64,000 bases of DNA from Muricea muricata (Eukaryota > Cnidaria > Anthozoa > Malacalcyonacea > Plexauridae): NCBI GenBank assembly GCA_963855995.1, contig OY979718.1:27757782-27821781 (forward strand), given 5' to 3'. Below, one piece after another: positions 2,684-52,867 of the stretch (the first letter of the stretch is position 1; each line of letters begins with the position of its first letter). The translations under genes and the position numbers were made by a program. The notes beneath the pieces were generated by a model. It did not search any database. It was not told the origin of the DNA and was given only the letters and a program-made list of their open reading frames with translations.

Positions 2684-2686
2684 TAA

Positions 2687-3892
2687 ACCAGGCAATCTTT
2701 TTTGAAATTAAGGGGCGCGGGAACATCCTATTTACTCGAATAACATATCAAACGAAAGCCCATTGTTCGTACTTTACAAATATATCATTTTTAACATGGC
2801 ACAAATTGGTGGCTTTACTATGCGGGACAGCAAACGAGATGAACGCATCCCTGCACGAGAAACTGCATATTAATTTATATTGCAATATTCTTTCACGTAT
2901 AAATCCGAAAAACAAGTGGTTTTTGAAAAGAGAAACGGCTCTTATGTGATTGAATAACATATCGATGGAAAGCCCATATTGCATAGATTACAAGGATATA
3001 CTTTTTAGCCTGGCACAAATTCGTGTCTTCATTCTACGAGGCGTGAAACGGCAGGGAACGCACGCTTGAGACCTGTAACTGCATAATAATTACTTTTGCT
3101 CAATCGGAAAAACGAGTGATTTTTGTCGAGAGAAATGGTTCTTATTTGCTTGAATAATATATCGATCGAAAGCCCATATTGCATAGATTACAAATACGTA
3201 ATTTATAGCCTGGCACAAATTCGCCGTTTTAATCTACGGGCAGCCAAAGGAGACGGAAGGCATGTTTGAGATGTTAATTATTTTCCAGCAATGCTAAATA
3301 TACGCGAATTTTGCCAAGAGAAACGGTTCGTATCTCCTTGAGTAACATATCGATAGAAAGCCCGTGGCCTGTATATTACAAAGATGTAATTTTTAGCCTG
3401 GCACAAATTCGTGCCTACATTCTACGAGACGCGAAACCACAAACAATACACGCATAACAATATTCGATACTATTGTACGCACTTCCAAAATCAGCGATTT
3501 TCGTCCTCAGAAACGGCTTCATTCCGCTTGAAAGAGTTATCAACAGAAAGCTAATACATAGTAGATTACGATTATGCGATATTTAAACTGGTACAAATTC
3601 ATCGATAGATTTTACAGCACGGGGAACGCAATAAAACGCCCGCCGCCGATTCGGAATTCCATAACATGCCTTCCGTCCCTCGAAAACTGGCCAGGATTTT
3701 AGTCCGAAAAACTTCTCCAATCGACTTGAAAACATATCAGTAGACACCCCATTCTCCGTAGATTAGAAATATGTTAAATTTAAGTTGGCACAAATTCGTC
3801 GGTCCACTCTATAGACGAGAAAACGATTTGTGAAGCTACCACAGGATTCGAACGCTCGAAGACGCATACTAATTAACTTTGACAACGTAAAC
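2687..3892 (+). repeat. Left inverted repeat, segment 1 (about 200-bp tandem units)
   Basis: Degenerate tandem units carry the core motifs AGCCTGGCACAAATTCG, AACATATCGAT and GAGAAACGG, spaced about 195-200 bp apart (near 2802, 3008, 3204, 3400, 3590 and 3785). A non-unit stretch at 3620-3880 links this cycle to the next. No coding sequence is seen. Reverse-complement partner sequence lies at 17.6-18.86 kb. Confidence 0.8.
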
Positions 3893-5839: not shown

Positions 5840-6822
5840 ACGTAAACATACTGATTGAGGAATACGACATGAAAATGTATTATTCTATAATAATTGACGC
5901 GCACGCGAAAACGTGCGATTTTTGAAAGAGAATTGTCCCGAATATAGTCGAATGGCATATCATTAAAAAGCCCACAGCCTATAGATTACAAATATGTAAT
6001 TTCTAGCCTGGCACAAACTCGCCGTTCTAATCTACGGAAGGTGAAAGAAGTAGGACGCTAGCTTGACACATCAAACTGCATATTAATTGTTTTTGCGCAA
6101 TCAAAAAAATACGCGATTTTCTTCAAGACAAACGGCTTGTATCTGCTTGAATAACATATCGATGGAAAGCCCATAGTGCATAGATCACAAGGATATATTT
6201 TTTAGTCGGGCACAAATTCGTGCCCACATTCTACGAGGCGTGAAACGCGAGGGACGCACGCTTGACACTTGTAACTGCATAATAATTACTTTTGCTCAAT
6301 CGGAAAAACGACTGATTTTTGTCGAGAGAAACGGTTCTTATCTGCTTGAATAACATATCGATCGAAAGCCCATATTGCATAGATTACAAATACGTAATTT
6401 ATAGCCTGGCACAAATTCGCCGTTTTAATATACGGGCAGCCAAAGGAGACGGAAGGCATGTTTGAGATGTTAATTATTTTCCAGCAATGCTAAATATACG
6501 CGAATTTTGCCAAGAGAAACGGTTCGTATCTCCTTGAGTAACATATCGATAGAAAGCCCGTGGCCTGTATATTACAAAGATGTAATTTTTAGCCTGGCAC
6601 AAATTCGTGCCTACATTCTACGAGACGCGAAACCACAAACAATACACGCATAACAATATTCGATACTATTGTACGCACTTCCAAAATCAGCGATTTTCGT
6701 CCTCAGAAACGGCTTCATTCCGCTTGAAAGAGTTATCAACAGAAAGCTAATACATAGTAGATTACGATTATGCGATATTTAAACTGGCACAAATTCATCG
6801 ATACATTTTACAGCACGGGGAA
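5840..6822 (+). repeat. Left inverted repeat, segment 2
   Basis: Continuation of the tandem-unit array after the 8-bp-duplication transposon, with core motifs near 6005, 6205, 6405, 6595 and 6785. It is in the same orientation as segments 1 and 3 and opposite to the right-hand array. The 3' part nearly repeats segment 1 (for example 6360-6800 against 3150-3620), so this region was amplified as blocks of several units. Confidence 0.78.
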
Positions 6823-6923
6823 CTGGATCCGGGGAACGATCATTTTGCAATTACTATAGAATTGTATTACAGTTTTAAAAACACACACACAAAATACTAC
6901 AGGACTTCAAAATTAAGGAAGAA

Positions 6924-7823
6924 ATGTCCAGCTCACGTTCGAATTCGAGTAGCTACAGCAATGTATCAGCTAATAATCTATACGAAGTAGAAGATGAGTT
7001 AAAAGGAAGCGAGAAAAGCGATGATGAAGACAATGCCAATAGCGACAATGACAACATGGATGACAATAGCGACATTGAGGCATATTTTGATGAGCCGATG
7101 GCGGACGAAGCATGGTTGGCAGATTATCTTCGAAGGCGAGAAGAAGACGAGGAAAGACAGCAACAGCTCCAACTTCGTTTAAATGGAAACGAGCCTGTTA
7201 CTTCATGGTAAATTCTGTCGTTCTGCATTATGTAATTTTTGTTTGATCTTGCCTGTTCCCATGTCAGTGTATGTATATGCATATAATTGTGTTGTTTTTT
7301 AAATAGGTGTTCTTGTGGAAACTGTAGGATTGAACTGTTACAAAATGCAAAGGAATGTAATTGTTGCAAAGAAATTGAGAATTGTGTTGAATTCATCTCA
7401 AATTTTCACAAAAAAACCCTGAAATGCATCGTGGACCATCCTGGATTTCCTGCTGTTTGCCTTAACATGTGGTCATTAGAAATAGCAGCCGATAATTATA
7501 AAACTCGTGATGGTAAGCGTTACAGCCAAAGTGGTGGGAAACAAAAGTAAGAGACTGATTCTTTATTTAATATTAAAAATACTTGAGATTTTTTATAACC
7601 TGTTCATTCAAATACATATTTACATGTGCATGGATCTTTTTTGTTCAGATTTCTTCGAGGTGTTGCTTACAGGCAGTTTACACGTATGGTACATGGTCGA
7701 TTGAAAGACAAGAGAATACCATTGCCTGCTTGTGCATACCATATCATACGTTCAACTCATGAAATCGAAGATGAGGAATTTGCAGGTTATGAAGAATTGG
7801 AAACCAGCGAAGAAAGTGAATAG
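6924..7823 (+). CDS. P2X7 cytoplasmic ballast (cysteine-rich) domain protein, 3 exons
   Basis: Exons 6924-7207, 7307-7546 and 7649-7823 join in frame through GT-AG introns to give 232 aa. Residues 1-94 are Ser-rich, then strongly acidic, then Arg/Gln-rich. From residue 95 the protein matches the C-terminal ballast domain of the P2X7 ATP receptor: WCSCGNC, then NCCKEIE, then a block with HPGFPAVCLNMW, then FLRGVAYRQFTR and IPLPACAYHIIR. In P2X7 this domain binds zinc and guanine nucleotide. There are no membrane segments, so this is a free-standing soluble protein, not a receptor. The tail (EDEEFAGYEELETSEESE) is acidic. It is convergent with the THAP gene, 193 bp apart. Its role in the transposon is unknown. 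A longer exon 2 ending at 7512 was rejected because it breaks the frame. Confidence 0.85.
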
Positions 7824-8016
7824 ACACTTAGAAAAACAAAAACATGAAAAACTGTTGTTACTAAATACTAGGCCAATATTGTGTACAGTCCGCTAACCTC
7901 CCCTGGTTGCTTTACTAATGCTTTACTGTACTGCAGACTTTACAAACTGGCAAAAATACAATGCAATAACACAAAAAATTGAAAAATGTTCATTTAATTT
8001 TAAAAAGCCATAATTT

Positions 8017-11000
8017 CTAATCCTTTTTGTTTCTCGGACAACTTGTAACATTTTTGTGGCCTTTCATGGGTTGTTTACACAAAGTGCACTTTGGAGGGTT
8101 CCTTTGTTTTCCAGCTGCAGGATCAGCCCTTACACTAGTGGGAACTAAAATAAAAAATATTGTATTTAGGGTATTAAACACAAAATAAGTATATGTTGTA
8201 CACATGTTGTATTATGTTTCACAGGATTTGTAACAGTCTTTACCTGGGTTAGTAGGAGGGACATCCGAAAGCTGCATGTTATCCCTTGCTTTCTTCTTTT
8301 GAATAGCTTCCTCCCGTGGTTGTTTCACAAGCATGGTATTCATGGGTGGTGGTACTTGTGCCTTCAGTTCAATCATGGCATCTTGTAATTTGTCCTTTTC
8401 AACAGCTTCTACTAATGTTTCGAATATATCCTCAACATAACCTGTAATAAAAAGTTCAAATTATTGCACTATATTCTTGGGTTTCACCAGGACATTTTGC
8501 TGTAAATATGAATGGGGGTCAACCCAAAATATACTGAGGATTATGCTGTATTGTAGTGAGCAAGTCTCACAAAATTGCACACATTTGCTGCCTAACACCA
8601 GGTCAACACCTACAGTGAAATATTATTTTCCTCTGATGACTGTATATATGGATTTGGAGTTAACCACCAGTAAAATTTATAATCTCACATGAAACCCAAG
8701 AATTGCATTGAAATATAGAAAACCTACAATTTTACCAAGACCCCTGTGTATAGGAAAATGGGGGGTTGGACAATATTCATTCTTTAGATCTGACTATATG
8801 TTCATGCATACCAAAATTTTGTTGCACTGTAATCTTTCGAACAACAGCTTCCCCATTCATGAATTTTGGATATACCACATTGTATCGTTCCACACCATCT
8901 TTTGTTTTCTTCTCACGGCATAGATTCTTATTAAAATGCATAACTGCGATTGCATGCCTGCAATAAAAAAGCAACACACTGCATTTAATCTGCTCATGTG
9001 CATGGATTTGTACATTTTTCTAGAAGTAGATAATTTTCAAGTGTCCAATATTTTGAGTGTGAGCTGGTCACAAATGGGGTGGGTTACTTTTTAGAGAGGC
9101 CTTATGTTTGCACACTTTCTTGGTGGGAGGTGGTAAGGGAGGGCACACATGCCACACAAACATTCTTGAGGGGTATGTACCCCCTTCCAGAAAATCTGTC
9201 TTGTGTAACATGCATAATTATAATATATCATTTGTGAATTCTGAGCCCTGACTGGTTAAGAGCTGTGTTGACATAACTTAAATGTCAACACGGAAATTTT
9301 CCCACCACTATTCTTTGTGCTACATTTTAAAAGAAATATAAAACAATTTTGCTTATTAATATGCAGTTATATCAACACGTACTAATGAAAATGGGAAAAC
9401 TCAAAATTTGTGTTAAAACATTCATGTCGTCACACAATTTCTTGTTTTTCCAATTTCCACTAGTGTTCATTTAATTGTATATCAACATGGAAAATTTTTT
9501 TTTTAAATGTAACATATAGAGTAAATAATATACCTGCAAAACATTCCTGTATATGAGTAACCAATCATTTTTGGACAGAAATGATTCAACACGGAATGGA
9601 AGCCTTCAAGGCAACTTGTTTGATCCATTGGTGATGCTTGCATAATCCCTTTCTTTAACCTTTGATTGGTTAAAGAATAATACATTTTCTCATATGCAAT
9701 TGAATCTATAATAAATTACATTACTGCATTAAAAAAATGCAACTTCACTAATTCTAGTTTCAATCTCACATCAAAAGATTGTTTTTGAAATGCAGTTTGG
9801 TGTGATTCTTACAACACTGTAGTGTAAGAATCTTCTGATGTTTCAGTAGGTATGTCCGTCAGTTAAACAAACACAATAAAGACAAACAAAAAATTGTACC
9901 TTTGTCTAACCACTTGCGTGGCTGGATTTCAGCAGCATGCTTACACTTGTTAAATACTGGGTTGTCCAGATTTTCATGTTTGTCTATAACATGGCTTAAA
10001 AACGATGAAAATTTGGCCCAGATAACTTCACCATTTCCATCGCGAGTAGTTCTTGCACTCCAGTAGAGATGCCTGGTGCAAGGCTTTATCCACTCATTAA
10101 TAGCCTCACATCCACTTACTTTTGCAATTTTCATCAACAATTTTGTTACTTCTAAATTTAGAATACATGTACACAAATTTATGTGAAATTACCAATTTAT
10201 GAGGATGTATTGCATACCAAAAGTAGACCATGTCAGGGACAGATTTTTACATTTTGTTTGGGGAGGAGCAGAAATTTTTAGTGGGTGCCCAATAACTTTG
10301 AGGGAGGGGTCGTCAGTTATGAGGTTACTTTCTCATGGGGGCAAGGCAGTTGTCAAACCATTTTAGAAGGGGTGCCAACCCCCTAAAAATCTGTCCATGC
10401 TGTACATATAACTCTGCAAAGAGATTTTAACATACATGTACTATACATACTTTTCTTTAAATGCCATATATCGAAATAATGATGAATGTCAGACAACTTT
10501 TCCCTCATATGTTTTGAAATTGCTGAATGTCTGTCGGAAATAAACGTCTTCAGCAACAAACCCAAACCAAGGAGATACTCCATGCTTCTGGAAAAACCAG
10601 CAAACTCCATAGCTGGACTGCTGCCTACTTCGTTTCTCTGGTAAAATAAATTATAAATATAAATTTATAAAACTTGTACCAATTGATCACATGTACAACA
10701 GGAAACTCAATATAACTGCAGAACAACATATTTATTTTTATAGAATATAAACAATATCATGTACTCCACATACCTGCACCAAGGAAAAATGAATAATAAA
10801 TGGTAATGTGCAACAAAAAACAGTATAGGCACAGTACTTGGCACTGTGACCCATACTGTCATGCCGTCCATCACTTGCAATAACCAATTTCCCCTGCTTT
10901 TTTACTTCTTCAATTAATCCAGCCTGATATTTCTTCCAATGAGGATATACTGAAGGGAACAATTTTTCCTACAAACAATATATTTCAATAGTTAGCTTAT

Positions 11001-12985
11001 GAAAAGTGACTTGTACAGATCATATACACTGTAATACACCCTGTGACCCTTACATCATGCAAAAAAAATATTAATTTGTTATATAAAAAATGACCATGTG
11101 TTAGTAGATTTGTGTAAAATTTACAGGTAGTATTTATTTTACTTACTCGTTGATACTTAAAGAAAGTCGTTAGTGAAACACAGGTCAATCCCATGTGCTG
11201 AAAAACCCTGAAAACCTTGGTTGCTGAGGTACCTGCCACAAGGATGGCAAAACCAAGCAATAAATTGCCAGCTGCAATTTTTGTGCCAGGGAAATTGGGT
11301 TGGCTGTACCAGGATGTCCGCTTTCCACACTCTGGATTGACACATATTGTGACAACCTCAGCCATAGTGCCATGGGCATGTACTTCTGTCAATGCTTTGT
11401 CCGACTTACATGCTCGGCAAATTTGGAAAAGAGTCAACAGCTGTGTCAAGAACACGATGAATTTTGGCTCTGTTCTTATATTGTACTCCTTCTGGGGAAT
11501 TCTGAAATACCATTTTCATTAATAAAAATTAGAAATATGAATATCACAATTTAACTAGAAACTGACCAACTAAATGTCTACCTTTGTGACTGACCACTTG
11601 CATCCTTGTCAGGTTCAGAATCTGATGTTTCAGTCTCAGTCTCAATCTCAACATTGTTATCATTGTTTGAATACTCCTCTGCTTCAATTTCAGATTCATC
11701 ATTCTCATCATCGTATTCACCATCATCACCATCATCATCATGAACCTCACTACCAAGATGACTTTCACCTGTCTGACCTGCACATAAAAGACAAAAAATA
11801 TATATGTTGTCACACTTTTTAAATAAATATAGAAGGTTTAGACATATAATCGGAATGTATGCATATTCCTTACCTGCAATACTGGCCTTAAGAGTTTTTA
11901 ATTCCACTCTGGCCAAATGTAAATTATGCTTTGATTTTTTCCACCAAACGTGAATCCTCTGGTTTTCTTTCTTCAGTAACTTACAATTTTCGCAAGCCTC
12001 TAATTCTACATACTATAAAAACAAAACAAAAAACTGAATGCAAATGTCATATATCCTGAGTTTCACATGTCATCTATACTTTACAACTTACCAACGCTTC
12101 ACTTTCTACTTGCTGTAATGAAGTTGACTCTCCTCTCTCTTCACCAGCAATCTATAAATTTATGAAAACACACGAGTCAACATATACATACTGTAGTAGT
12201 AACATGCGTTGTTTGTGAGACTTAAATTAAAATAAGTCCTACCATCGTTCCTTCTTCGCTTGGCACACCACTCTCTGTAGTCTCTGACACAACAGCAATA
12301 TTTTGAACTCCAGAGCTTTCTTCATCAACAGCCTGCCGAGTTAAGATAAGATATGACAACAATTATATATATCAAATTTCGCGATTCCAGAGCAGAAACT
12401 GTAGAGGTGTAGTATAAAACTATAAAAGCCGCATGAATGTTATTAAATTTTTGAACAAGAATATATTTACAATGCAAATTGACGCAATAAGTATAATTAT
12501 TCCACTTTATGTTTTATTGACGCAAGTCTATGAGATTATATAAACGAATATAACGTTACATGAATGAGCGTATATGATGTTATTCATGTTACTTAATATG
12601 TGAAGAGACAGATAAATACCTTGCTTTCCTGCCTTCGCTTTGCACGTCTCGTGCGCTTACTTTCCACACTTGTTTCAGCACTCGTGGCCAACGTAGGAAA
12701 GACGCATACTCCTAAATTATCTTTCTTTAGCCTTGGAGTCTTGTACTTTTCAACCGTGTCTGAGCCGTATTCGAAGCAATCTTCAGTAAAGTGCTTCGAG
12801 CACACAACAGTCCCACGTGTTGCCGTCCATTTCTGTCTCGTGCTCTTGACAAACTTCTCCCATTTGCCCCTCCGTTTGGCCAATACCGGCGATTCTTCAC
12901 CCCAAAAAGGTATTTCATGCACAGAAATTCCCTCTTCTTGGTTGGCAGTGTTCGAACAGCCCCCAACAACACATCGTTTGGGCAT
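8017..12985 (-). CDS. THAP-domain DDE transposase-like protein, 13 exons, intact
   Basis: Exons on the minus strand are 12985-12620, 12332-12243, 12151-12092, 12012-11874, 11777-11582, 11501-11147, 10968-10774, 10637-10451, 10151-9900, 9705-9534, 8957-8812, 8441-8244 and 8144-8017. All introns are GT-AG and the sum is 2484 nt, 827 aa plus stop. Residues 1-98 form a THAP DNA-binding domain with C5, C10, C62 and H65. A Leu/Lys coiled region and a Glu/Asp-rich stretch (about 219-284) follow. The core has FQICRACKSDK, SDGRHDSMGHSAKY (D435), FISDRHSAI (D502) and SCLEGFHSVL (E647), a plausible DDE triad in an RNase-H-like fold. The C terminus carries a CCHC knuckle (C805, C808, H815, C821). THAP plus DDE is known in P and Kolobok transposases; this family resembles many multi-copy invertebrate proteins. 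It is probably the transposase of the enclosing element. Confidence 0.86.
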
Positions 12986-13067
12986 TTTTTGACCGAAAGT
13001 CGCGAAAGCTTTGTCTCTCACAATAGAAATCCCTAGTTCTTGTCGAAAATGAGTTCCCCGGATCCAG

Positions 13068-13249
13068 TCCCCCGACGGGCCGAACGAAGTGCGCACTTTT
13101 TTCTGTAAAACAGCTCAAATTTCATTGTTTGAGCCGTCATATTTTGAAAACTAAAAGTTGTACGCAAAAACTAGTCTAGAAAGTATTAACTAACTTTTTT
13201 AGCTCTATCTGAATCATCAAAAACCCATTTTGGGTTTAGTAGCACTTTA
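13068..13249. other. Short unique stretch between transposon and array
   Basis: No gene or recognisable repeat. Its sequence does not continue the tandem units, so it may be part of the THAP element or residue of an insertion-associated deletion. Confidence 0.4.
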
Positions 13250-14062
13250 ACTTTGACAACGTAAACATACAAACGATGATGTCATTGAGGAATACGACAT
13301 GAAAATGTAGTATCTATAATAATTGACGCGCACGCGAAAACGTGCGATTTTTGAAAGAGAATCATCCCGAATATAGTCGAATAGCATATCATTAAAAAGC
13401 CCACAGCCTATAGATTACAAATATGTAATTTCTAGCCTGGCACAAATTCGCTGTTTTAATCTACGGAAGGTGAAACAAGTAGAACGCTACTCGCTAGCTC
13501 GACACATCAAACTGCATATTAATTCTTTTTACGCAATCAAAAATATACGCGATTTTTGTCAAGACAAACGGCTTGTATCTGCTTGAATAACATATCGATC
13601 GAAAGCCCATATCGCATAGATTACAAGGATATATTTTTTAGCCTGGCACAAATTCGTGTCTTCATTCTACAAGGCGTGAAACGGGAAGGAACGCGCCCTT
13701 CAGACTTGTAACTGCATCATAATTATTTTTGCTCAATCGGAAAAACAAGTGGTTTTTGTTAAGAGAAACGGTTCTTATCTGCTTGAATAACATATCTATC
13801 GAAAGCCCATAATGCATAGATTACAAATACGTAAATTCTAGCCTGGTACACATTCGTGTCTTCATTCTGCGGGCAGTCAAAGGAGACGGAAAGCATGTTT
13901 GAGATATTAATTATTTTCCAGCAATGCTAAATACACGCGTTTTTGGCCAAGAGAAACGGTTCGTATCTCCTTGAGTAACATATCGATGGAAAGCCCATAG
14001 TCTGTAGATTACAAATATGTCATTTAGCCTGGCACAAATTCGTGCCTATATACATTCTACGA
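13250..14062 (+). repeat. Left inverted repeat, segment 3
   Basis: Starts again with ACTTTGACAACGTAAACATA, as at 3876-5850, and runs through four units (motif GCCTGGCACAAATTCG near 13,436, 13,640, 13,845 and 14,030). It ends at CATTCTACGAGGC, which is also the inner end of the right-hand array. It therefore marks the inner border of the left repeat. Confidence 0.78.
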
Positions 14063-14065
14063 GGC

Positions 14066-14308
14066 ATCGTACTGATCCCGGACCTTGGACGCCGCGTCGT
14101 TGATCAATGTAGACCAGGGCTCGATTTCCTCTCCAGAACTGTTTTCAGTTGTGATTTTCGTGAATGTTGCCTCCTCTAGTATCCACAGCAAAGTCCCAAC
14201 AGTGATGCTGCTTTATTCTTTTTCAAAACTGTTTTCATCCGGCTCATCTATCGGAATGCTACTATCGTCTTTGGCATGAGTTTCCATATAATTTTCGCTG
14301 TAGTCCAT
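14066..14308 (-). pseudogene. Fragment of an unidentified Polinton-core gene
   Basis: From ATG at 14308 the minus strand reads MDYSENYMETHAKDDSSIP and a short acidic stretch, then stops. One frame over, an uninterrupted coding-like stretch continues to the array border and includes EEIEPWSTLINDAASKVRDQ. The two pieces look like one acidic protein with a single frame break, cut off by the repeat array. I do not recognise the family with certainty. A minus-strand acidic gene beside the ATPase fits the layout of Polinton-like elements, but this is inference. Confidence 0.4.
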
Positions 14309-14730: not shown

Positions 14731-15698
14731 ATGAACGTTGAGAAGCCTGGACAAAAGCGTGTAAAACAAAGTGAACATTTGCGACCCGCAAAAAGACCAA
14801 GAACAGCAGCGCGTACGACATCTTTGGCAACCAAGTCCTTTCCGGAATTCAACTTCCGCGATAAATTCTCACTTTTGGTTGTGGGTCATACACAAAGCGG
14901 GAAAACATATTCTGTCCAACAAATTTTAAAACACAATCGTATCGTGTATGAAGAGCAAAAGAGTATTCGCATTTTTTTGGTACTACAATCAATGGCAAGA
15001 ATGTTACGAAAAGCTAAAAAAAGTCTCTCGGTAAAAGCATCCGATTTGAAAGAGGTGTGCCCGAGGTGTCTGAAGATCTGTGTGAAATCAATGCACGGTA
15101 AAACAATATCATCATCCAAGACGATTTGATGGCTGAAACGACAGACAGTCGTGCGGTATCTCGACTATTTACACAAGGCCGCCATCGAAAGGCCAGCGTT
15201 ATCTTATTGCTGCAAAACATGTTTCCTAAGGGGAAATATAATGCAGATATCAGCCAGCACTTTGCTCTCTTTCGAAGTCCTAGCGATCGAAAACAAATCG
15301 GAATTATTGCAGAACGCATCTTTGACACGAATAGAGTGCACTTTATGAATGCTTATTACAAGGAGACCGAAAAACCGTATGGATACTTGTTGGTGGATAA
15401 CAAGCCCAACACACCACCCGATAATCAAATTCTTGCAGACCTATTTGGGGAATGCTATACTTATCACAGCACAGCAACCAAAACGACCTCTTCAACGAAT
15501 AAGCCTGCGCAAACCGTAACCTGGTCGGATGTTCCAAACGACGTGTGGCAAAAAAACACCTTGGGAGCACCGGAAGTCCATAAGATTCCCGAAGGATATG
15601 TTATCATTGAAATGTACAACACATCGCGCAACGGAAATCATCAGCCTGTCCGTGGAGGTCTGTTAATCAACGACGAAAATTATTGGCCTGTGAAATAA
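14731..15698 (+). pseudogene. Decayed Polinton packaging ATPase (HerA/FtsK type)
   Basis: This gene would encode the genome-packaging ATPase of Polintons and related double-stranded DNA viruses. After a basic leader, a Walker A motif is clear (VVGHTQSGKT, near 14880). The frame then breaks near the T7 run at about 14971, again near 15026, and is interrupted by a TAA at about 15096. Coherent sequence resumes in a third frame with a Walker B-like IIIQDDLM and then FTQGRHRKASVILLLQNMF and SQHFALFRSP, typical of this ATPase group, to a stop at 15698. At least two frameshifts and one nonsense codon make it non-functional. No reconstruction is attempted. Confidence 0.85.
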
Positions 15699-16235
15699 AA
15701 GCACCTATCTACAAGTCATACCAAATGCGTGAATTTACACAGCGATGAGCCTACCGTCCAATCCATTGTTAAAAAAAACCGTGGAAAACACTACAGAGCC
15801 AAAGGTAAACTATTGCCCTAAGTAAATGCTTGTAATGAGAAGGCTATATCTTAATAAATATGTGGAAACACTGTTTCTGTTCTCTTTTATATGTTTACTC
15901 AACCATATTAGGCATAACGTTATCCCCATAAGCCATAACGTTATCGTGCTGACGTTAGCCGCCATCTGATCGGTAACGTCACCGGTGACGTTACTGGTAA
16001 CGTTACTTGTAACGTTATCATGACGTCACCGCATGACGTAATCGTTACTTCCAGCGCCAATACCATCCTGCATACTAATTACTTCAACCGCCAATGACTC
16101 CTCCTCATCATGACGTCACCCTCCTTGAATACTAATTACTTCCGGCACCATTTTAAATACTAATTACTTCCGGTGCCATTTTGAATACTAATTACTTCCG
16201 TTACAAAAGGGGCTCACAGGTACTACTTCTATGTG
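15699..16235. promoter_or_regulatory. Intergenic core end with CRE-like palindromes and ACTAATTACTTCC repeats
   Basis: No gene is supported here. Between 15910 and 16125 there are many AACGTTA/TAACGTCA variants, including the perfect CRE palindrome TGACGTCA at 16021-16028 and 16111-16118. Between about 16072 and 16200 the motif ATACTAATTACTTCC recurs four times with CATTTT spacers (period near 30 bp). The clustering suggests a regulatory or subterminal binding region of the Polinton relic. Confidence 0.5.
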
Positions 16236-18863
16236 ATAAGTTTCACGCCTCGTAGAATGTAGGCACCAATTTGTGCCATACTAAAAATAACATATTTGTA
16301 GTCTATGAACTATGAGCTTTCTATCGATATGTTATTCAATTAGACATGAGTTGTTACTCTTGGCAAAATTCACTTGTTTTTCCGATTTCGCAAAATAATT
16401 ATTATGCAGTTTCAAGTCTCAAGCGAGCCTTCCGTCCCTTTTGACGGCCTGTAGAATGAAAACACGAATTTGTGCCAGACTAAAAAATATATCCTTGTAA
16501 TCTATGCAATATGGGCTTTCGGTCGATATGTTATTCAAGCAAATAAGAACCGTTTCTCTTGACAAAAATCACTTGTTTTTCCGATTCCGCATAAATAATA
16601 AACATATTGTTTTGAAGTCTAAGGCAATCTGCGTCACTAGTTTCTCGCCTCGTAGAATGTAGGCACGAATTTGTGCCAGGCTAGAAATGACATATTTGTA
16701 ATCTATAGATTATAGGCTTTCCATCGATATGTTACTCAAGAAGATACGAACCGTTTCTCTTGACATAAATCACTTGATTTTCCGATTGAGCAAAAATAAT
16801 CATTATCCAGTCAGAAGTCTCAAACATGCTTTCCGTCTCCTTTGACTGCCCGTAGAATGAAGACACGAGTGTGTGGCAGGCTAGAATTTACGTATTTGTA
16901 ATTTATGCATCGTGGGCTTTTGATAGATATGTTATTCAAGCAGATAAGAACCGTTTCTCTTGACAAAAACCACTTGTTTAATTTCTCCGATTGAGCAAAA
17001 ATAATTATGATCCAATTACAAGTCTGAAGGGCGCGTTCCCTCTTGTTTGACGGCCCGTAGAATGAAGACACGAATTTGTACCAGGCTAAAAAATATATCC
17101 TGGTAATCTATGCAATATGAGCTTTCGATCGATATGTTATTCAAGCAAATAAGAACCGTTTCTCTTGTCAAAAATCACCTTTTTTCTGATTGCGCAGAAA
17201 TAATGAACATGCACGGTCTTGAAGTCCAAAGCAACTGTGTCTCTAGTTTCTCGCCTCGTAGAATGTAGGCACAAATTTGTGCCAGACTAAAAATAACATA
17301 TTTGTAATCTATGAACTAAGAGCTTTCTATCGATATGTTATTCAACCGGATACAACCCGTTTCTCTTGAAGAAAATCGCGTATATTCTTGATTGCGTAAA
17401 AATAATTAACATGGAGTTTGAATAGTCGAGCTGTCGTTCTGCTCGTTTCACCTTCCGTGGATTAAAACAGCGAATTTGTGTCAAGCTAGAAATTACATAT
17501 TTGTAATCTATAGCCTGTGGGCTTTTTAATGATATGCTATTCGACTATATTCGGGACAATTCTCTTTCAAAAATCGCACGTTTTCGCGTGCGCGTCAATT
17601 ATTATACAATACTACATTTTCATGTCGTATTCCTCAATGACATCATCGTTTGTATGTCTACGTTATCAAAGTTAATTAGTATGCGTCCTCGAGCGTTCGA
17701 ATCCTGTGGTAACTTCACAAGTCGTTTTCTCGTCTATAGAGTGGACCGACGAATTTGTGCCAGCTTAAATTTAACATATTTCTAATCTACGGAGAATGGG
17801 GTGTCTACTGATATGTTTTCAAGTCGATTGGAGACGTTTTTCGGACTAAAATTCGGACGAGTTCAGTCGAGGGACGGAAGGCATGTTATGGAATTCCGAA
17901 TCGGCGGCGGGCGTTTTATTGCGTTCCTCGTGCTGTAAAATCTATGGATGAATTTGTACCAGTTTAAATATCGCATAATCGTAATCTACTATGTATTAGC
18001 TTTCTGTTGATAACTCATTCAAGCGGAATGAAGCCGTTTCTGAGGACGAAAATCGCTGATTTTGGAAGTGCGTACAATAGTATCGAATATTGTTATGCGT
18101 GTATTGTTTGTGGTTTCGCGTCTCGTAGAATGTAGGCACGAATTTGTGGCAGGCTAAAAATTACATCTTTGTAATATACAGGCCACGGGCTTTCTATCGA
18201 TATGTTACTCAAGGAGATACGAACCGTTTCTCTTGGCAAAATTCGCGTATATTTAGCATTGCTGGAAAATAATTAACATCTCAAACATGCCTTCCGTCTC
18301 CTTTGGCTGCCCGTAGATTAAAACGGCGAATTTGTGCCAGGCTATAAATTACGTATTTGTAATCTATGCAATATGGGCTTTCGATCGATATATTATTCAA
18401 GCAAATAAGAACCATTTCTCTCGACAAAAATCACTCGTTTTTCCGATTGAGCAAAAGTAATTATTATGCAGTTACAGGTCTCAAGCGTGCGTTCCCTGCC
18501 GTTTCACGCCTCGTAGAATGAAGACACGAATTTGTGCCAGGCTAAAAAGTATATCCTTGTAATCTATGCAATATGGGCTTTCGATCGATATGTTATTCAA
18601 TCACATAAGAGCCGTTTCTCTTTTCAAAAACCACTTGTTTTTCGGATTTATACGTGAAAGAATATTGCAATATAAATTAATATGCAGTTTCTCGTGCAGG
18701 GATGCGTTCATCTCGTTTGCTGTCCCGCATAGTGAAGCTACCAATTTGTGCCATGTTAAAAATGATATATTTGTAAAGTACGAACAATGGGCTTTCGTTT
18801 GATATGTTATTCGAGTAAATAGGATGTTCCCGCGCTCCTTAATTTCAAAAAAGATTGCCTGGT
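16236..18863 (-). repeat. Right inverted repeat of the Polinton relic (uninterrupted)
   Basis: About 13 tandem units of roughly 195-200 bp in the orientation opposite to the left repeat; typical blocks are TTTGTGCCAGGCTA, ATGTTATTCAAGC and CCGTTTCTCTTG. The non-unit linker corresponding to 3620-3880 lies at about 17,650-17,940. The outer end matches 2687 onward, including the GGCAATCTTTTTTGAAATTA block. No coding sequence. Confidence 0.8.
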
Positions 18864-18866
18864 TTA

Positions 18867-19613: not shown

Positions 19614-20720
19614 ACAAATGGAGTTATAGGAGGTGACAAAGTCATCATCCATCTCGTTTCATATGGAACGGTATTTTATGACGTGCCGACGCCAAAGAGT
19701 TTTAATGGTGCGTTTCACACTGAAGTTTATTCTAAGCCTACTGATGCGCATCGATATTTGAATTTTAAATCATGTCACCCTCCACACGTAAAGAGAGCGA
19801 TCCCTTATAGCCAGGGTTTACGCTTGAGACGAATTTGTAATTCGGATAATGTTTTTGAGGAAAAGTTAGGAGAACTTAAAGGGTTTTTGGTAAAACGGGG
19901 GTATTGTTCCGATTATGTTGATAACCAGTTTGAAAGGGTGAGGGGAGTCAACAGGAATAGTCTACTTAAGCGGAAAGAGGGGTTTGAAAATAGTAATAAA
20001 AATTGCTTTGTATTGATTATCATCCAGCATTGAGAGTTCTTTATGAGATATTTAGAGAATTGCAGGGAATTGTAGCTTGGTCTGAAAGGTTTTTGCAGAT
20101 TATGCCAGAACCACCAATGGTGTGTTTTCGTCGTACCAAGAACCTTAAGGACCATTTAGTTTGTGCTAAGTTGCGAAGGGAAGAGGAAGCAGTCGTTGGG
20201 ATGTTTAAGTGCGGAAAGAATAGATGTAAAATTTGTGATAACGTTACAGTTGGTGATAAATTTAAAAGCAATGCGGAGGGACGTTCTTTCTTCATTAATC
20301 ATCGTTTCGATTGTCACTCAGAGGGTGTAATATATTTAATAAGTTGTAACAGCTGTGGGCTGCAATACGTTGGAAGTACTATAACATCATTTCGGTTGCG
20401 CTTTAATAATCATAAAAGCTCTTTAAATAGGTATGGTTGTGGGCAGACAAATGTTGCTGGGCAGCATTTGTACGCTCATTTTTTCGGGGAGGGCCATTCA
20501 GGTTTATGTGATTTGTCAGTGCAGGTTATTGATTGTACTGACGTTAATAACCCTACTGAGAGGGAGAGTTTTTGGGTAGAGAAGCTTAATTGCTATGTGC
20601 CTAATGGACTTAATTTGAAAGAAGAGGTTTGATTTATGTTTATATGCAAAATATAGAAGGTATTTAAAGAGACGGGGATTAATGAATGTCACTCTGAAGA
20701 AGGGGCTTGACCCCGAAACG
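19614..20720 (+). pseudogene. Penelope-like element, 3' part: RT end plus GIY-YIG nuclease
   Basis: PLE retroelements encode a reverse transcriptase joined to a GIY-YIG endonuclease. This 5'-truncated copy starts inside the RT, and the typical tail FHTEVYSKPTDAHRYLNFKS is present near 19,710. The frame shifts by one near 20,000, after NSNKNC, and continues as IDYHPALRVLYEIFREL. The GIY-YIG domain follows: CKICDN zinc-type cysteines, GVIYLISCNSCGLQYVGST and ESFWVEKLNC, to a stop at 20,632. The 3' untranslated part ends in a hammerhead-like core and then directly in (TA)n. Confidence 0.85.
20694..20720 (+). ncRNA. Hammerhead-like core at PLE 3' end (stem I not evident)
   Basis: CTGAAGA, a GGGG/CCCC hairpin and GAAAC occur in hammerhead order. 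Sequences either side do not pair as stem I, so this is likely decayed or incomplete. PLEs are known to carry hammerhead ribozymes near their ends. Confidence 0.45.
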
Positions 20721-29484: not shown

Positions 29485-29679
29485 ATTGTCTTTAACTAAA
29501 GGTAAGTAGCAGCTAGGGAAGTCTACGTCCACATTAAAAGACTCCTTATCCAATACTGAGTGCCATACCCCAAGGATTTTTACATCCGCTTTCGCTACAT
29601 CATGTTCGGTGCCTTCTGCATGGTCTTTTATTACAGAGGTAATCTTTCTCCTGTAAGCAGCACGATGCTCACTCTTCAT
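29485..29679 (-). pseudogene. PLE coding 3' remnant in copy A
   Basis: Minus-strand frame MKSEHRAAYRRKITSVIKDH followed by WHSVLDKESFNVDVDFPSCY, the end of a PLE GIY-YIG protein. Compared with copy B it lacks about 18 codons between VKIL and WHSV. Only a short tail remains. Confidence 0.6.
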
Positions 29680-29769
29680 TACATGATATATAAATCAAAG
29701 TACGACCAAACCATGCACCTGCATGCATACGGATATAAATTAATGTACCACGATTTTTTATTCACTTAA

Positions 29770-31500
29770 CTTCACTTTTTTATCCTCTTGTCTGGCATTG
29801 ATCTGAAACCACAACAGGATAAAGCTTCTGTCATGCATTAATGAAACTAATGGCGGCCATATTGGGCTATCCACTATAAATCTACATTCGCATTACCTAC
29901 TTAGCAGAAGAGATTTTTATCAACGAGAATGCACAAACATTTTCACAGATAATCTATGTTTTCTTTTAAATTTGCCTGTAAATAACTAATGTATAGTCTA
30001 AGATGGTCCCCATGAGTTCGTTATCAAGTGTTTCAAGCCTTTTTGCAGCCATTAGATAAGTTGTGGCAAGCTACGTCTTTCCAGTTAATCTGGAAAAGAG
30101 ATTTGCTTGATAATTTGGCCAGTTTTTACACATCTCAATTTGATTTGCATAAGTTTTCATCGGTTTTAATATATCATCTCATTATAGATACTTTGGTTTT
30201 GGGTCACTGAATTCAAAAGCATGCTTTATCCAGTTTTAATCAGATCAGTGCTGTCTGGGCCTTCTGAGCATATATTGAATAAAAATAACATTTTAATTTA
30301 ATTTTACATTGTCGGGAACAATTAGCCCAAAGATGAAAAATATAGAAAGTAGTATGCCCAGTTTTAGTGATAGAAAAATCTTATTGCCAACTACGGACTT
30401 GTTAAACTGCTTTGTTATAATATGTAAATCATCCAAGTTTACTGTTCAAAGAAACTTGAGAGTGCAAACTGTAATGTTGGGCACAATGAAAGAATATTAA
30501 GGAAAGTCATATAGCTGCTTAAAAGAGTGAGTTAATACATTTAACTACATGTTAAACTGGGACAGCGTCGGCGATGTATTTTTGTGTTGGGGTGGGACAT
30601 TATTGGACATATCGTATATGCTCGCGTGTTCGACAATTCTCCAAAACGTATGGCGTATTAAGCTGTACAGTTTGAGGTACTCAAGTGTGCTACGTAGTTT
30701 ACTTCAAGCAATTTGTACCAATATTAAATAGGTGTTAAAGATTTTGGTTTATATTGGTCTTTGGAGAAAATGCAATGGATGTGCTTCGACCATTGCTGAA
30801 GAGGTCCAAGAGGAGCCATCAAAAATACTAGCTTTAAATTGGTTTTGCAAAAAGTGCTTTTTCAAGGGTGAAAATCCACACCTATTTTGTACCTAAATAA
30901 TAGAAAAAATGCATGTTGCGACTGGAGTTATTTCTTCTGGCCGATGTGATTGAGTAAATTCTATACTATTCCAAAAGCGATCTAATGTTTGTATTATATC
31001 TCAATTTGTTCGCATATTTATTCTCATGCGTGAGAACAAGAGAATCCCCAATACTTACTATAAGTGTGAGCCAGGCTTTAACTGAAATAATCCAAAGAAA
31101 AATTTTAACGTTCATCTATCTCGATCAAATCAAAATTTAGCATGCCCTAGTAAAATCCAAAGTGGCTGACGTTTAAAACATCATAACTTCATCTTATTAG
31201 CATACATGTTTGCTATATGTCCAGACGCTCTTTAGTATTATTCAGGTGCAATTCAATTAAATTTGTTTATGAATAATGAAAAGTTGCGTCTCATTTTCGA
31301 ATTGCGTGCGGTTTGCATGGATCTTAAGAGCGGGATTTTAGTTTGTCTTTTTTTTTCACTTATGGATTTCACTTTGCATGTACTGTTTTGAGAGAACTAA
31401 TTGAGAGTTTCAATTATACTTTAACCTAATGCCACTTACGTCACTTAAAATATTTTATGATGCTACAAAAACATAACAAACCATAGTAACGCTTTCTTAA
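29770..31500. other. Non-coding part of duplication, copy A
   Basis: Closely similar to 51,280-52,740. No supported gene; the short frames differ between copies by stops and frameshifts. Confidence 0.6.
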
Positions 31501-31529
31501 TGCAAAGAATGCAAGGGTAAATGTGCATG

Positions 31530-31537
31530 TATAAAAG
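31530..31537 (+). promoter_or_regulatory. TATA box of cysteine-rich peptide gene, copy A
   Basis: TATAAAAG, 77 bp upstream of the start codon gap, within a 300-bp stretch nearly identical in copy B. Spacing suits a short 5' untranslated region beginning near 31,560. Confidence 0.75.
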
Positions 31538-31614
31538 GGAGAGCGAACACCAAGTTTTCACAGATCAGATCTTAACTGCAAACCTCAACTGAATTTGGGA
31601 AGTTCTGAAGAAAA

Positions 31615-33343
31615 ATGAAGAAGACTACATTCCTTGCTTTCTTAATCTTGGGATTGGCATGCATCTATGGTAAATCACTAGCTTCATATTTTTAGTTTGT
31701 CTTTGTTTCCGATAACTTCCAATAGCATCATAAGAACTATTAGTGGAAAACCAGTCACAAATCCACGTTAAATATTTAAGACTGGTATATTTGTTATTCG
31801 TTTAGCTAATAAATTTTAAACAATAGTGCTATAATTTCTTTCGTGCAGCTGCAACGACTGAAGAGGAGATTATCGAGGAAGAGCCTGCAGAGGAAGATGA
31901 AGTAATCGAAAATGATGAAGGTGATTTATTTTAACCAACTATCAACCTCTTCGATAAACCGCTAACTTTTCCATTATCTTTTGCGCTCCAAAGCTATTGT
32001 CTATGAACAGTAATATCCATGACGTTATAAATAGACGTTAAAAAGGTCGAAAACTAAAATTTGATCAACGTTTTCTTGTTCTGTGAATCACATGAACTAT
32101 ACTGATTAAAACATTAAACCAATTATAAAAATTTTAAGATTAGCCACCTATAGATACTAAAGTCCTTGCGTAGATGCTTGCGGATTTTCGGCGCTCTTAA
32201 TTGACACTAAATAGGAAGAACTTAACATCGCTCATCCTGAGCAACATTTGCTTCAGTATCACGATTGATGAAGCCGATCAAGTGACAAATAAAATTGTTT
32301 CATAAAGTATTTTATAATTACAGATGAAACAGAAAATGACGAAGAAAACGGTGTGGAGAAGAGAGCGGGTATGTAAACTAATTTTCGTTCTTAACTGACC
32401 ATTTAAAATGTTGATGATCAAACTCAAATTTCTAACCTGCATGAGCAGTTTAAGAACTATGGGAGACCTTAAAACACGAATTTATTGGTTTTTAAACATT
32501 AACCAGGTTCTCACCCGCTAGTGCTATATAATCTTTGGAAAGATTCTACTTGATTGATATATAATGATTGTGTATAAGGTTGTATTAATGATATAATTAT
32601 CGTACCGAAATGACATATAGCTCGTCTTCACGTACCAGGCATGCTCACGTCTTCACGTACCAGACATGCTTAATTATGCATAATATACGTTTAAGTGTAA
32701 GACGAGGTATTCTACATTAAGAAGAATATATTGCCGTATAGTATGCGAGAAAATTATTTCAGGTCTTTTGCTGTAGGGCAATTTATATTTCTTCGTACCT
32801 ACCGTCTATATTATAAGCCTCCGACATTTTCCCAAATGCAAACGACTATCGTCATGATCGCGTTTAGTGACTTCGTTTTCAGTTGTACTGTACCTTTTTA
32901 TAAAGCTGTATGCAAGACAATACGCACGATCCCGATACATGTTATTATGTCCTCGCAGAAACGTGTTTATTAAACAAAATATGAATAACGTATAGTTTAG
33001 GATTTATTTTTATAGCAGTATCGATATCGAATCTGGGAACGACCGACAGTCTCGACTTTTTAGGTTTTGACTTAGACTTAGTTGTAATTTGAATTCTTAG
33101 GAAATAACTTTTTTCGTGAGTAATATTTTTTCGCACTCAACTATCTCTTCTGTTATTCTTTGGTTAGTGCGTTGTAGATTCTGCTTTAAAAGAAGAAAAG
33201 GGTGTTGTGTGAAGTATTGTTATTGTACATGCCGCAAATGTAATCGTAGATGTAAAAGACGTTGCCCTCGTAAAAGGTGCTATCGTGGCTCGGTAAGTAA
33301 TAAAGTAGTCATAAACATATTTTGTAAAAAAATATATAAGTAA
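31615..33343 (+). CDS. Secreted cysteine-rich cationic peptide precursor (host-defence-like), copy A
   Basis: Exons 31615-31669, 31849-31920, 32324-32368 and 33168-33343 join through GT-AG introns, all phase 1, giving 115 aa. Residues 1-19 are a signal peptide (MKKTTFLAFLILGLACIY). Residues 23-54 are almost all acidic (EEEIIEEEPAEEDEVIEND onward). A Lys-Arg site at 55-56 would release a mature part from residue 57 that is very Arg/Lys-rich with 12 cysteines, including a CC pair and the run CYCTCRKCNRRCKRRC. The acidic pro / basic Cys-rich plan matches cnidarian antimicrobial precursors such as Hydra periculins and coral damicornin, so a defence role is inferred; a venom or structural role is possible. 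A strong donor G|GTAAGT inside exon 4 (after 33291) could instead splice to about 34,008 and remove the last cysteine. Confidence 0.78.
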
Positions 33344-34353
33344 TTATATATTAGGGAAGAGTAAAAAACTTTTTTTCTTTCTATCCTGTATTAAATTCCA
33401 TACTGAAATGGTTCAGTGATTCTCTAATCCTATTCTAATCGGGAAAATTTAAAAAATATTCCTGAAAAAGTGTTTCTTATTAAATTCTTACCCAATATGA
33501 TTTAGCATAAAGTCATATAGTCCTGCAGAGAAAGTTTAATTAAACCGAAGCTTAGAATATTTTGCGAATGGTATTGACAACAAATGAAAACAAACAGTAT
33601 AACGACGAAGCAACTTGTGTCATGATAGAATGATTTGCCATCATTGTGTCGCGGCTCGTTGCATGACCTGTTTGGATGTTTGTAGGCGAATTGGGACGAA
33701 TCAATTATGTATATGATGTTTCTTCTGTCCAAAATAACACAAAAATTGTTGAAATACGCAAAGGCTTTCTGAAGTTTTAGAGCCCGTCGCGAATATAAAC
33801 GCCATGCCTTTGACAGGCCAGATTGAATCAGTGGAGCCGTGAATCTGAATTAAGCTGAAGCTGACTTGCTTTAATTGATGGGGTATATAGATTCACTATT
33901 TTAAGGCCGTGGCATATTTTCGCTCGCATAAACGTTCGTCCGAAATTCTCACTTGTTTGCGACAGTGACCAATAACAATGCGTAAATTCCCGTTTTTGTG
34001 GTTTCAGGCGATTCACCTGCAGGTAGCACTAACAAATAAAAGTACTCCAGTGATAAAAATTTAATCTTCAAAAATATAAAGGCACACATTTTATGACAGA
34101 AGTTTTTACAAAAAAATTAAAGATTACAATGCTGGAAGAGCAATGTTTGCGATATTTTCTAGACAGTTTGTCAAACACTTTTGTTGTTGTTTTGTTCGGC
34201 ATCATTTTCGTGTAGCTCGCATGTGGGTCATTATCTTGTTCCTCCAGGATTGTTGAACTCGCTCAATGAGTGTTTGTCGTCACTGTATGGCATAATAAGC
34301 TTTATAATTTGCTTTAAAATTTTATTCCTACGACTTCTTCGCGAGCGGGCAAG

Positions 34354-34446
34354 ATGAATTTAGCGTTCGCTATTTTACTCAGCTGTGTAATATTCCTTAT
34401 CAAACCAACTGGCTCAAGTGAATTGGAAAAATTTCATGTAAATTAA
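34354..34446 (+). pseudogene. Small secreted-peptide gene, copy A, frameshifted
   Basis: ATG at 34354 opens the same signal peptide as in copy B (MNLAFAILLSCVIFLIKPTG). One extra A at about 34,444-34,446 creates TAA after 30 codons. The donor (about 34,483) and second exon (from about 34,602) are still present, but the reading frame cannot continue. Confidence 0.65.
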
Positions 34447-34745
34447 TTTCACCTTTCCCTACATGTTTGTTACTAGAAGCCTAAGTAAGTTATTTTATTC
34501 CCATGTTGTATTGTCGTGCAATTAATTTTTGTACATTCAATACCAAAATCCATACGCTTCTGTAAAATTCTAAAATTTGTTCCATTTTTTTCGATATAGT
34601 GCCCCCGGGGTTAAAACGCAAGACCATACCAATAGATTCCACACAAAGGACCTAAAACGGAGGACGGATATTGATAAATATACTCAGCATGATGAAGTAG
34701 AAACATGTTCACAGGGGTTGTCTACATAAAACCTCAATAGTTATT

Positions 34746-34751
34746 AATAAA
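34746..34751 (+). terminator. Polyadenylation signal, copy A
   Basis: AATAAA followed about 20 bp later by a T/G-rich stretch (TTTTTTGTTTTGTCG). Identical context in copy B at 57513. Confidence 0.7.
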
Positions 34752-34879
34752 GTTCATTGAAAACACTTTTTTGTTTTGTCGTATCTAAAATATGTATTCA
34801 TGGATGTATAAGTGAGGGAAAAATCCATAAAAAATATGGAAAATTTTGTCGTAAATTTTTCACTCATGGAAATAAGCTC

Positions 34880-35828
34880 ATGGAAACGCGTCGCCATCCT
34901 CCTTTTCACAGTAGTGAGCAAAAATTTTATGCCATCTTAGTCCCCGTATACACCTGCTAGGGAAATCGGAGGATTCGTTTTACCGTTTACAGTAAGGATA
35001 CAAAATTATCACAGATAGATCATGAATACGGAACTTTCGAATCCGGAAAAGTTTGTGGGGTCTTTGTATCGGAGAAAGTTTGAATCCGACAAAACTTCTC
35101 CTGTAAACTCTTTCCATAAAGAATTTGAGTGAACTTGCTCCATCATGTGGTTTTCAAATTGATTGGTATTATTTTCAACTGTCAAAATCAGTCAAAAAAT
35201 CACGAAATAATATTGGTAGAATCACGGTTGGGCTTTATCTATTGATAATCGCTGTGCGAGGCTGTGCAGTATAAACGCCGTCGACCTGAAAGTCAAGCAA
35301 TCCGGATATTTTTACAAATCCGGAAACTTTTACCCTAGTGTAAACCGAGTCTTATATTGGCTATTGCCAAAAAAATCAGGGCTGCGTCTTTCAGATAATC
35401 TAACTAATTAGGATTGTATCAACGTTTTGCCAAACTTTTGTGACATTATATTCTAAACTGCAAGTGCCGTAATAACCGGATATCTATGAGTTTCAATACT
35501 TTTTTGGAAATTTATTTCTGGAAAAGTACTTTTGGGTCTCTAACGCTTGTACACTCAGTATCCAATGTTTCCCCAATCTTTAATTTTGCTTCAATACAAA
35601 AGTTTCACCAGCTGCATAATTTCCCCGATAGTTTGTTTTTATAATACCCTTCTTGTTTTCTTTCAAGTTACTTTACTTTTTTTCAGCATACAAAGCAATC
35701 AATACATCCTTTGCATTTTTGTACATGTCGTACTGAATATTCTTATTCGTGCTTGCTATTGACCATAACTTATTGATGTCTTCATTCATGGACGTTTTTA
35801 AACTTACCGTGAGACAGTTTGGCATACT
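34880..35828. other. Unannotated AT-rich spacer
   Basis: No gene recognised. It contains short near-duplicated phrases around GAATCCGGAAAAGTTTGTGGGG (about 35,040-35,095), perhaps an old inserted repeat. Confidence 0.4.
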
Positions 35829-49880: not shown

Positions 49881-50644
<764 letters not shown>

Positions 50645-50764
50645 TACATGATATATGAATCAAAGTACGACCAAACCATGCACCTGCATGCATACGGATA
50701 TAAATTAGTGTACCACGGTTTTTTATTCACTTAACTTCACTTTTTTATCCTCTTGTCTGGCATT

Positions 50765-52740: not shown

Positions 52741-52782
52741 AACGCTTTCTTAATGCAAAGAATGCAAGGGTAAATGTGCATG

Positions 52783-52790
52783 TATAAAAG
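52783..52790 (+). promoter_or_regulatory. TATA box of cysteine-rich peptide gene, copy B
   Basis: TATAAAAG in the same context and distance from the ATG as in copy A. Confidence 0.75.
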
Positions 52791-52867
52791 GGAGAGCGAA
52801 CACCAAGTTTTCACAGATCACATCTTAACTGCAAACTTCAATTGAATTTGGGAAGTTCTGAAGAAAA

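Follow-up and report, generated by a model that had tools for sequence, protein, structure and literature searches.

The question raised by this locus is why a gene for the ballast domain of the receptor P2X7 lies next to a transposase gene in the genome of the anthozoan Muricea muricata. The window, that is the whole stretch of 64,000 nucleotides which was analysed (G000:C3:27757782-27821781), belongs to a genome of 453 megabases (Mb) in 74 contigs, in which the searches were made. Positions 6815-13250 of the window were found to be one DNA transposon with two tail-to-tail genes, a transposase gene on the minus strand and a gene for a P2X7-ballast protein, here called KolX, on the plus strand. 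There is very little doubt that the element belongs to the Kolobok superfamily, type Kol0, as a cut-and-paste DNA transposon with two genes. It represents a new family of a known two-gene kind.

Both gene models are splice predictions from the genomic sequence. An earlier reading of this DNA (the original prediction) had proposed two complete convergent genes at this place, and the models agree with it, as the KolX gene (three exons, plus strand, 232 amino acids predicted) and the transposase gene (13 exons from 12985 to 8017, minus strand, 827 amino acids predicted, GT..AG at 12 of 12 introns) are both intact as predicted. The KolX gene is composed of the following exons.

6924..7207, plus strand: KolX exon 1, acidic N-terminal part.
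7307..7546, plus strand: KolX exon 2, first zinc-cysteine clusters (WCSCGNC ... CNCC ... C).
7649..7823, plus strand: KolX exon 3, last zinc cysteine, the arginines matching rat P2X7 R546 and R578, and the stop codon.

KolX residues 72-222 match the Pfam family PF20478 (P2RX7_C) with 30 bits (cut-off 23.5; E 6.1e-07). This P2X7 C-terminal domain is the sole family above the cut-off, and the P2X channel domain is absent from the Pfam matches of KolX. Of the ten cysteines in the window copy, seven (96, 98, 101, 114, 115, 135 and 203) are kept in 14 of 14 genome loci, a set within which L031, L034 and L038 are near-duplicates. The P2X7 ballast is likewise reported to have seven cysteines around its two zinc ions (passages of PMC9587614). 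By hhalign, a profile of 21 KolX sequences matched one P2X7 ballast segment with probability 97.1, E 6.6e-11 (a value which holds for this single comparison only) and 28% identity over 114 columns. Against solved structures the sequence match is weak: one KolX sequence searched with phmmer placed P2X7 third (E 0.64), behind two DnaI chains (0.018 and 0.15). The KolX profile placed two P2X7 sequences at the top (E 0.0086 and 0.0088); no individual stretch passed by itself. By these sequence comparisons KolX carries the P2X7 ballast domain, and it would be a soluble, zinc-binding protein. Its closest relative was found in the octocoral Dendronephthya gigantea (64% identity over 88%).

KolX was also compared with the guanine-nucleotide site, for which R546, H547, R574, R578 and K583 are given in rat P2X7 (passages of PMC7016195). 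Matching positions in KolX were assigned by reading the alignments. The R546 position (KolX R178) is arginine in 19 of 21 sequences and in 12 of 13 within the genome, and the R578 position (KolX R209) in 17 of 19 sequences with letters and in 14 of 14 within the genome. The other site residues are not conserved in KolX: the H547 position is histidine in 1 of 21 sequences, the K583 position is lysine in 1 of 17 with letters, and the R574 position is never arginine. Invertebrate ballast domains likewise have arginine regularly only at the R546 and R578 positions (passages of Rump et al. 2020, PMC7016195). As far as the passages of that paper describe them, the P2X7 ballast and Nanor share with KolX the cysteine pattern WCxCxxC, CC, C, LPxC, the P2X7 ballast shares the two arginines as well, and the free short ballast-domain proteins of invertebrates resemble KolX. 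Unlike P2X7, KolX shows no match to the channel domain.

The transposase possesses a THAP domain (PF05485, 42.6 bits; cut-off 23.9) and matches the Mutator-like transposase family PF20700 (37.3 bits; cut-off 26.5), the sole transposase family above the Pfam cut-off. Its exons are arranged as follows.

12620..12985, minus strand: transposase exon 1, start and THAP domain (residues 5-89).
12332-12243, 12151-12092, 12012-11874 and 11777-11582, minus strand: transposase exons 2-5, linker with an acidic stretch.
11147..11501, minus strand: transposase exon 6, beginning of the Mutator/Kolobok-like core.
10774..10968, minus strand: transposase exon 7, first catalytic aspartic acid, D435 in SDGRHDSMGHSAKYC.
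10451..10637, minus strand: transposase exon 8, second catalytic aspartic acid D502 and the DxxH motif (D523-H526).
9900..10151, minus strand: transposase exon 9, cysteine/histidine stretch between DxxH and the last glutamic acid.
9534..9705, minus strand: transposase exon 10, catalytic glutamic acid, E647 in CLEGFHSVLNHFCPK.
8957-8812, 8441-8244 and 8144-8017, minus strand: transposase exons 11-13, short cysteine-containing tail and stop.

Over 14 loci the DDE centre is well kept, with D435 in 13 of 13 loci with letters, D502 in 12 of 13 and E647 in 14 of 14, and the DxxH motif is present in 12 of 14. The cysteine/histidine stretch of exon 9, GCEAINEWIKPCTRHLYW, is similar across loci and is a candidate zinc finger.

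The original prediction had located short inverted ends near 6823 and 13067, and this point had to be corrected. The inverted match in question (21 of 22 letters, 6815-6836 against 13052-13073 of the other strand) is only the inner portion of a terminal inverted repeat which is longer, and an element ending at 6823 and 13067 is ruled out, as near-identical copies elsewhere run beyond on both sides. On the right, all 6 right-end loci examined of near-identical copies match up to 13250 or 13251, and the flank differs each time. On the left, the element sequence continues past 6815 in 7 of 7 other near-identical copies, and the window copy stops there. Elsewhere in the genome, complete copies have a length of about 6.6 kilobases (kb) and possess terminal inverted repeats of about 200 base pairs (bp) which begin with 5'-AG. 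Measured against L010, the copy at C1:105.76 Mb, the intact element would be about 6,589 bp and the left deficit of the window copy is 157 bp. The two terminal repeats of that copy show 84% identity over 231 aligned columns (L010 left end against L002 right end). The parts of the window copy are as follows.

6815..13250, no strand: window copy of the transposon, very probably Kolobok of Kol0 type; extent common to near-identical copies elsewhere, left tip gone, right end intact.
6815..6836, plus strand: remnant (inner part) of the left terminal inverted repeat; the outer 157 bp are present in L010 and gone here, and the first nine letters, 6815-6823, may come from the host repeat.
13052..13246, minus strand: right terminal inverted repeat; outer tip, inward, 5'-AGTGCTACTAAACCC.
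13247..13250, no strand: TTAA target site at the right end; the right end of 6 of 6 other near-identical copies examined bears TTAA, and two relatives of the host repeat without the insertion have it once.

With a tolerance of 4 mismatches, the left tip TTAA-AGTGCTACTAAACCCAAAA is recognised in 6 of the 7 other near-identical copies; in the seventh, L015, the outermost stretch is gone. Five of the eight near-identical copies, window included, have TTAA at both ends, and the remaining three have one end intact or examined, which bears TTAA. The occupied site has the sequence ...TTAACTTTGACAACG at its right junction. In the two unoccupied relatives the sequence is ...CTAATTAACTTTGA(C/T)AACG with one TTAA, which agrees with insertion at TTAA. 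The element termini are 5'-AGTGCTAC..., i.e. AG/CT, of the 5'-RR/YY-3' kind. Among six distant loci scanned, L031 and L034 possess their own TTAA-flanked ends beginning 5'-AGGGGCAC... (AG), with terminal repeats of 219 bp and 98.6% identity in L031 and 31-bp tips in L034; no terminal repeats were found within the stretches examined of L035, L036, L038 and L039.

All copy counts given here are lower bounds: the KolX-protein search scored 150 of 1,379 initial candidates and had 190 matches, of which a part is listed, one further search had the same two limits, and counts are among the matches listed. A search with the right 2.1 kb of the element gave at least 7 full-length matches at 99-100%, window included, of 45, and a search with the ballast gene gave at least 8 at 99-100%, window included, of 42. 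The two numbers differ because the copy at C1:81.10 Mb lacks about 930 bp of the transposase side; the right-side query matched it in two pieces, 1-618 and 1551-2101. Over longer stretches the identity to the window copy is 99.3-99.8% at the right-end loci (n=6) and 98.9-99.6% at the left-end loci (n=7), and the flanks differ. KolX is free of frameshifts and internal stops in the window copy and 6 of 7 other near-identical copies, and transposase exons 1-10 have open frames in the window copy as well as in 5 of 6 others examined. As copies about 99% identical are situated at different places, the family is recently active.

The assignment to Kolobok follows from the combination of the TTAA target, the AG/CT ends, the THAP domain and the DDE centre with DxxH, to which the cysteine/histidine stretch before the last glutamic acid may add a zinc finger, and the assignment to Kol0 from the second gene, since KolX is a marker of that lineage. 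The TTAA is a 4-bp target duplication, seen at both ends of copies and as a single TTAA in the unoccupied relatives. That the element is instead a P-element-, MuDR- or piggyBac-like transposon is very improbable. THAP domains are known from P elements too, and PF20700 bears the name Mutator-like; piggyBac likewise uses TTAA (passages of PMC9587614). Against this, no piggyBac or P-element family was among the Pfam matches at E up to 10, the AG/CT termini are not the non-RR termini of piggyBac, and TTAA, 5'-AG/CT-3' ends, THAP, DxxH and a KolX partner together fit Kolobok Kol0 (passages of PMC9587614 and PMC6004289). That two unrelated host genes are neighbours here without any transposon has a negligible probability. 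Both genes possess introns and intact reading frames, as host genes would; this reading is refuted by the dispersed copies, as seven further near-identical copies have different flanks, the terminal repeats are flanked by TTAA, and unoccupied relatives of the insertion site exist.

Among the described elements, Kol0 (Kolobok-1_XT type; passages of Kojima and Bao 2022, PMC9587614) is closest. Like the element here, it has a DDE transposase together with KolX of seven conserved cysteines, the TTAA target, 5'-RR/YY-3' ends and a C/DxxH motif. The element here differs from the described Kol0 in its 13-exon transposase and 3-exon KolX, and is a new family in this genome. The THAP DNA-binding domain is usual in Kolobok, and the Xenopus XKol elements also possess THAP, TTAA target duplications, AG termini and recent full-length copies (passages of PMC6004289). 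Two table rows of that paper give XKol lengths of 12,216 and 9,163 bp against about 6.6 kb here. An H2CH zinc finger is described for XKol in those passages; the candidate for it here is the cysteine/histidine stretch of exon 9. The term KolX had 0 matches in the main text of the XKol paper (PMC6004289).

To analyse the pairing of the two genes across the genome, at least 98 transposase and at least 103 ballast loci were compared, with distances taken between match starts and a limit of 15 kb. Among the matches listed, 22 of the 24 transposase loci whose best exon has at least 60% identity have a ballast gene within 15 kb, and the two others have none. Each of these 22 ballast loci is downstream of the transposase and in opposite orientation, and for 20 the distance is no more than 5 kb. 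At one of the 22 (C1:32.52 Mb) the KolX listed belongs to a derivative family, described below, and may not be the own partner of that transposase. Of the transposase loci below 60% identity, 73 of 74 have no ballast gene among the matches listed, and the remaining one has a ballast gene on the same strand 12 kb off, which is probably unrelated to it. The distant transposases thus seemed to be without KolX (75 of 98 loci with none listed), and this was rejected, as 11 of 13 such loci which were read do carry KolX, convergent and downstream. The seeming lack arose because the ballast search listed only part of the matches. The 13 loci read of the 75 were picked to span the identity groups and are not a random sample. 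In the two others, the transposase is cut off after about residue 613 (L029) or the examined stretch ends at the transposase 3' end (L040). In seven of the 11, the transposase core occupies a single open frame or a small number of them; the introns of the window copy are missing, and identity is 28-39% per matched core piece. Recurrence of the gene pair between the same ends with consistent target duplications, which the original prediction had given as its test, is borne out by these 22 of 24 paired loci and by the TTAA at both ends of 5 of 8 copies; the contrary picture it had named, copies of the transposase element devoid of the ballast gene, was not found at the 13 loci read, 11 of which have one.

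Two deep Kolobok clades were distinguished in the genome. The first comprises the window copy, L030, L032, L033 and L041-L043, with intron-rich transposase, and the second L031 and L034-L039, with the core in a single open frame or nearly so; L031 shows a weak THAP-like match in a separate upstream frame. KolX is convergent in both clades at the loci read. A derivative family of many copies was also observed (L027:749-3244 and L028), with 26 rows among the matches listed which start at KolX residue 103 or 104. In the two copies read, it keeps parts of transposase exon 1 and of the last exon without the core between, and its KolX has lost two zinc cysteines of the first cluster, CTGSTG replacing CSCGNC. 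It seems to be a non-autonomous element, with mobilisation in trans.

Over the 14 loci with both genes, the pairwise distances in the transposase core are correlated with those in the ballast protein (Mantel r 0.93, reached by 0 of 9,999 permutations). Within the intron-rich clade alone (7 loci) r is 0.93, reached by 3 of 5,040 orders, true order included, and for five distinct loci of the other clade r is 0.96, reached by 1 of 120 orders, which is the true order itself. Transposase and KolX have been together for long, diverging in step. The ratio of nonsynonymous to synonymous substitution (dN/dS) in the KolX zinc domain is 0.11-0.18 between the window copy and seven diverged loci (L021, L022, L024-L028), with dS above 1 and saturated. 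KolX appears to be under purifying selection between families, at the approximate level which these values allow.

In the proposed working of the element, the transposase would bind the terminal inverted repeats through its THAP domain, as in its family, and the DDE centre would cut and join the DNA, as the conserved residues suggest. Insertion takes place at TTAA, as shown by the TTAA ends and the unoccupied relatives of the insertion site, and cut-and-paste at TTAA is well supported. KolX probably serves the movement of the element itself, as a partner or regulator of the transposase and not as a stray host gene, which is suggested by linkage, co-divergence and selection.

That KolX is passenger cargo, derived from the host, useful to it or neutral and without a role in transposition, is unlikely. 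Such a reading is in keeping with the indirect nature of the evidence which ties KolX to the transposition reaction, and with the damage of KolX in several copies and in one derivative family of many copies. It is disfavoured because loss or exchange of a passive cargo would be expected at such divergence. Here the convergent order of the genes is retained at 22 of 24 close loci and at 11 of 13 others, even where transposase identity is as low as about 28-39%, with step-wise co-divergence of the two proteins and purifying selection on KolX between families. KolX acting for the element outside the transposition reaction, for example by blunting host silencing or the DNA-damage response, or through control of transposase expression by the convergent gene, is possible and somewhat doubtful. 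Linkage and selection are compatible with such a role, and the P2X7 ballast is a cytoplasmic module which is not DNA-bound (passages of Rump et al. 2020, PMC7016195); no positive evidence for a role outside transposition was found here. This explanation overlaps with the regulator role named above, and the likelihoods given to the different readings do not sum to one.

Several observations weigh against the partnership of KolX and transposase proposed here, or limit it. In L015, one of the near-identical copies, KolX is frameshifted. At C2:37.43 Mb (L019 and L020), one of the 22 paired loci, a close relative has the transposase and an internally deleted KolX, and in the derivative family KolX is damaged and the transposase core is missing. 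Given these three cases, not every copy has to encode KolX in cis. Of the seven diverged loci used for dN/dS, five are damaged, with stops in L021, L022 and L026 and with part of the first zinc cluster missing in L027 and L028, and the values are approximate owing to the saturated dS. Between close copies the ratio is not low, neither in the zinc domain (L021-L022 1.08, L024-L025 0.30, window-L017 0.60) nor in the N-terminal part (L024-L025 1.21, window-L018 0.82). This pattern, from few sites, would be expected from selection on the lineage followed by decay of single copies. The Mantel result is driven in part by the two deep clades, yet it holds inside each. The evidence which points to a role of KolX in transposition consists of linkage and selection.

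The original prediction had also placed the locus inside another element's repeat, which agrees with both flanks being derived from an array of units of about 200 bp. Inverted copies of the array are situated at 2684-3892 and 17656-18866, 98% alike over 1.2 kb, and the units recur at 5854-6823, 13284-14066 and 16228-17675. The arrays are apparently the terminal arrays of a host element. The nine letters ACGGGGAAC at the left junction (6815-6823) occur unchanged in the host repeat at 3619-3627, and 8 of the 9 are found in other copies of the transposon. The window copy would first have inserted into the repeat of the other element and then lost its left tip together with about 250 bp of host repeat, and the deletion was presumably joined at the nine-letter near-match between element and host repeat. 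Because the left tip is lost, the window copy is probably immobile on its own. The host stretch bounded by these repeats is about 16 kb and includes two reading frames at 14731-15698, neither with a Pfam match, one of which has a GHTQSGKT motif that we take to be Walker-A-like. This stretch could be a DNA-virus-like or Maverick-like element.

Elsewhere in the window, a 301-amino-acid frame at 99-1004 contains a DDE_Tnp_4 transposase domain (128.9 bits) and is presumably of Harbinger type. A frame at 20003-20632 has a GIY-YIG domain (25.2 bits), and a 635-amino-acid frame at 47572-49479 without Pfam match looks, as we assume, like a Penelope-type protein. Outside the two genes of the transposon, four reading frames of the window were without a Pfam match. 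Long direct repeats at 29485-34880 and 50411-57620, 85-91% identical in four blocks, are a large duplicated element or segment.

The route from a mobile element to the P2X7 tail is not new, as it was already published in 2022 (passages of Kojima and Bao 2022, PMC9587614). These passages name the protein KolX; in the Kol0 lineage it resembles residues 476-595 of human P2X7 and adopts the ballast fold, P2X7 is proposed to have arisen when a P2X4-like gene fused with KolX, the source of its tail, and Nanor is suggested to be a domesticated KolX. Among 5.39 million papers searched, this was the only one with the term KolX, or with P2X7, ballast domain and transposon together, and the literature on transposons of corals and octocorals gave no mention of Kolobok among the matches listed. 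Co-divergence of or selection on KolX was not found reported in the main-text passages of Kojima and Bao (2022). The addition made here is evidence, within one genome, for KolX as an old, selected partner of the transposase. An 'ancestral synteny' has been reported around invertebrate ballast genes (passages of Rump et al. 2020, PMC7016195), and it may be the transposon's own gene pair. A speculative and on the whole rather improbable extension is that the P2X7 ballast began as an obligate transposase partner: KolX, perhaps switched by guanine nucleotides via the two conserved arginines, would control Kolobok excision or target joining, and vertebrate P2X7 would have inherited this module when a P2X4-like gene captured a KolX exon.

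With many insertions in one genome, the P2X7-tail domain is seen as the regular second gene of an old transposon lineage. The published hypothesis of a P2X7 fusion gains by this a population of recently active elements of the source type, and the task which the domain performs for the transposase may help to explain its task in the receptor P2X7.

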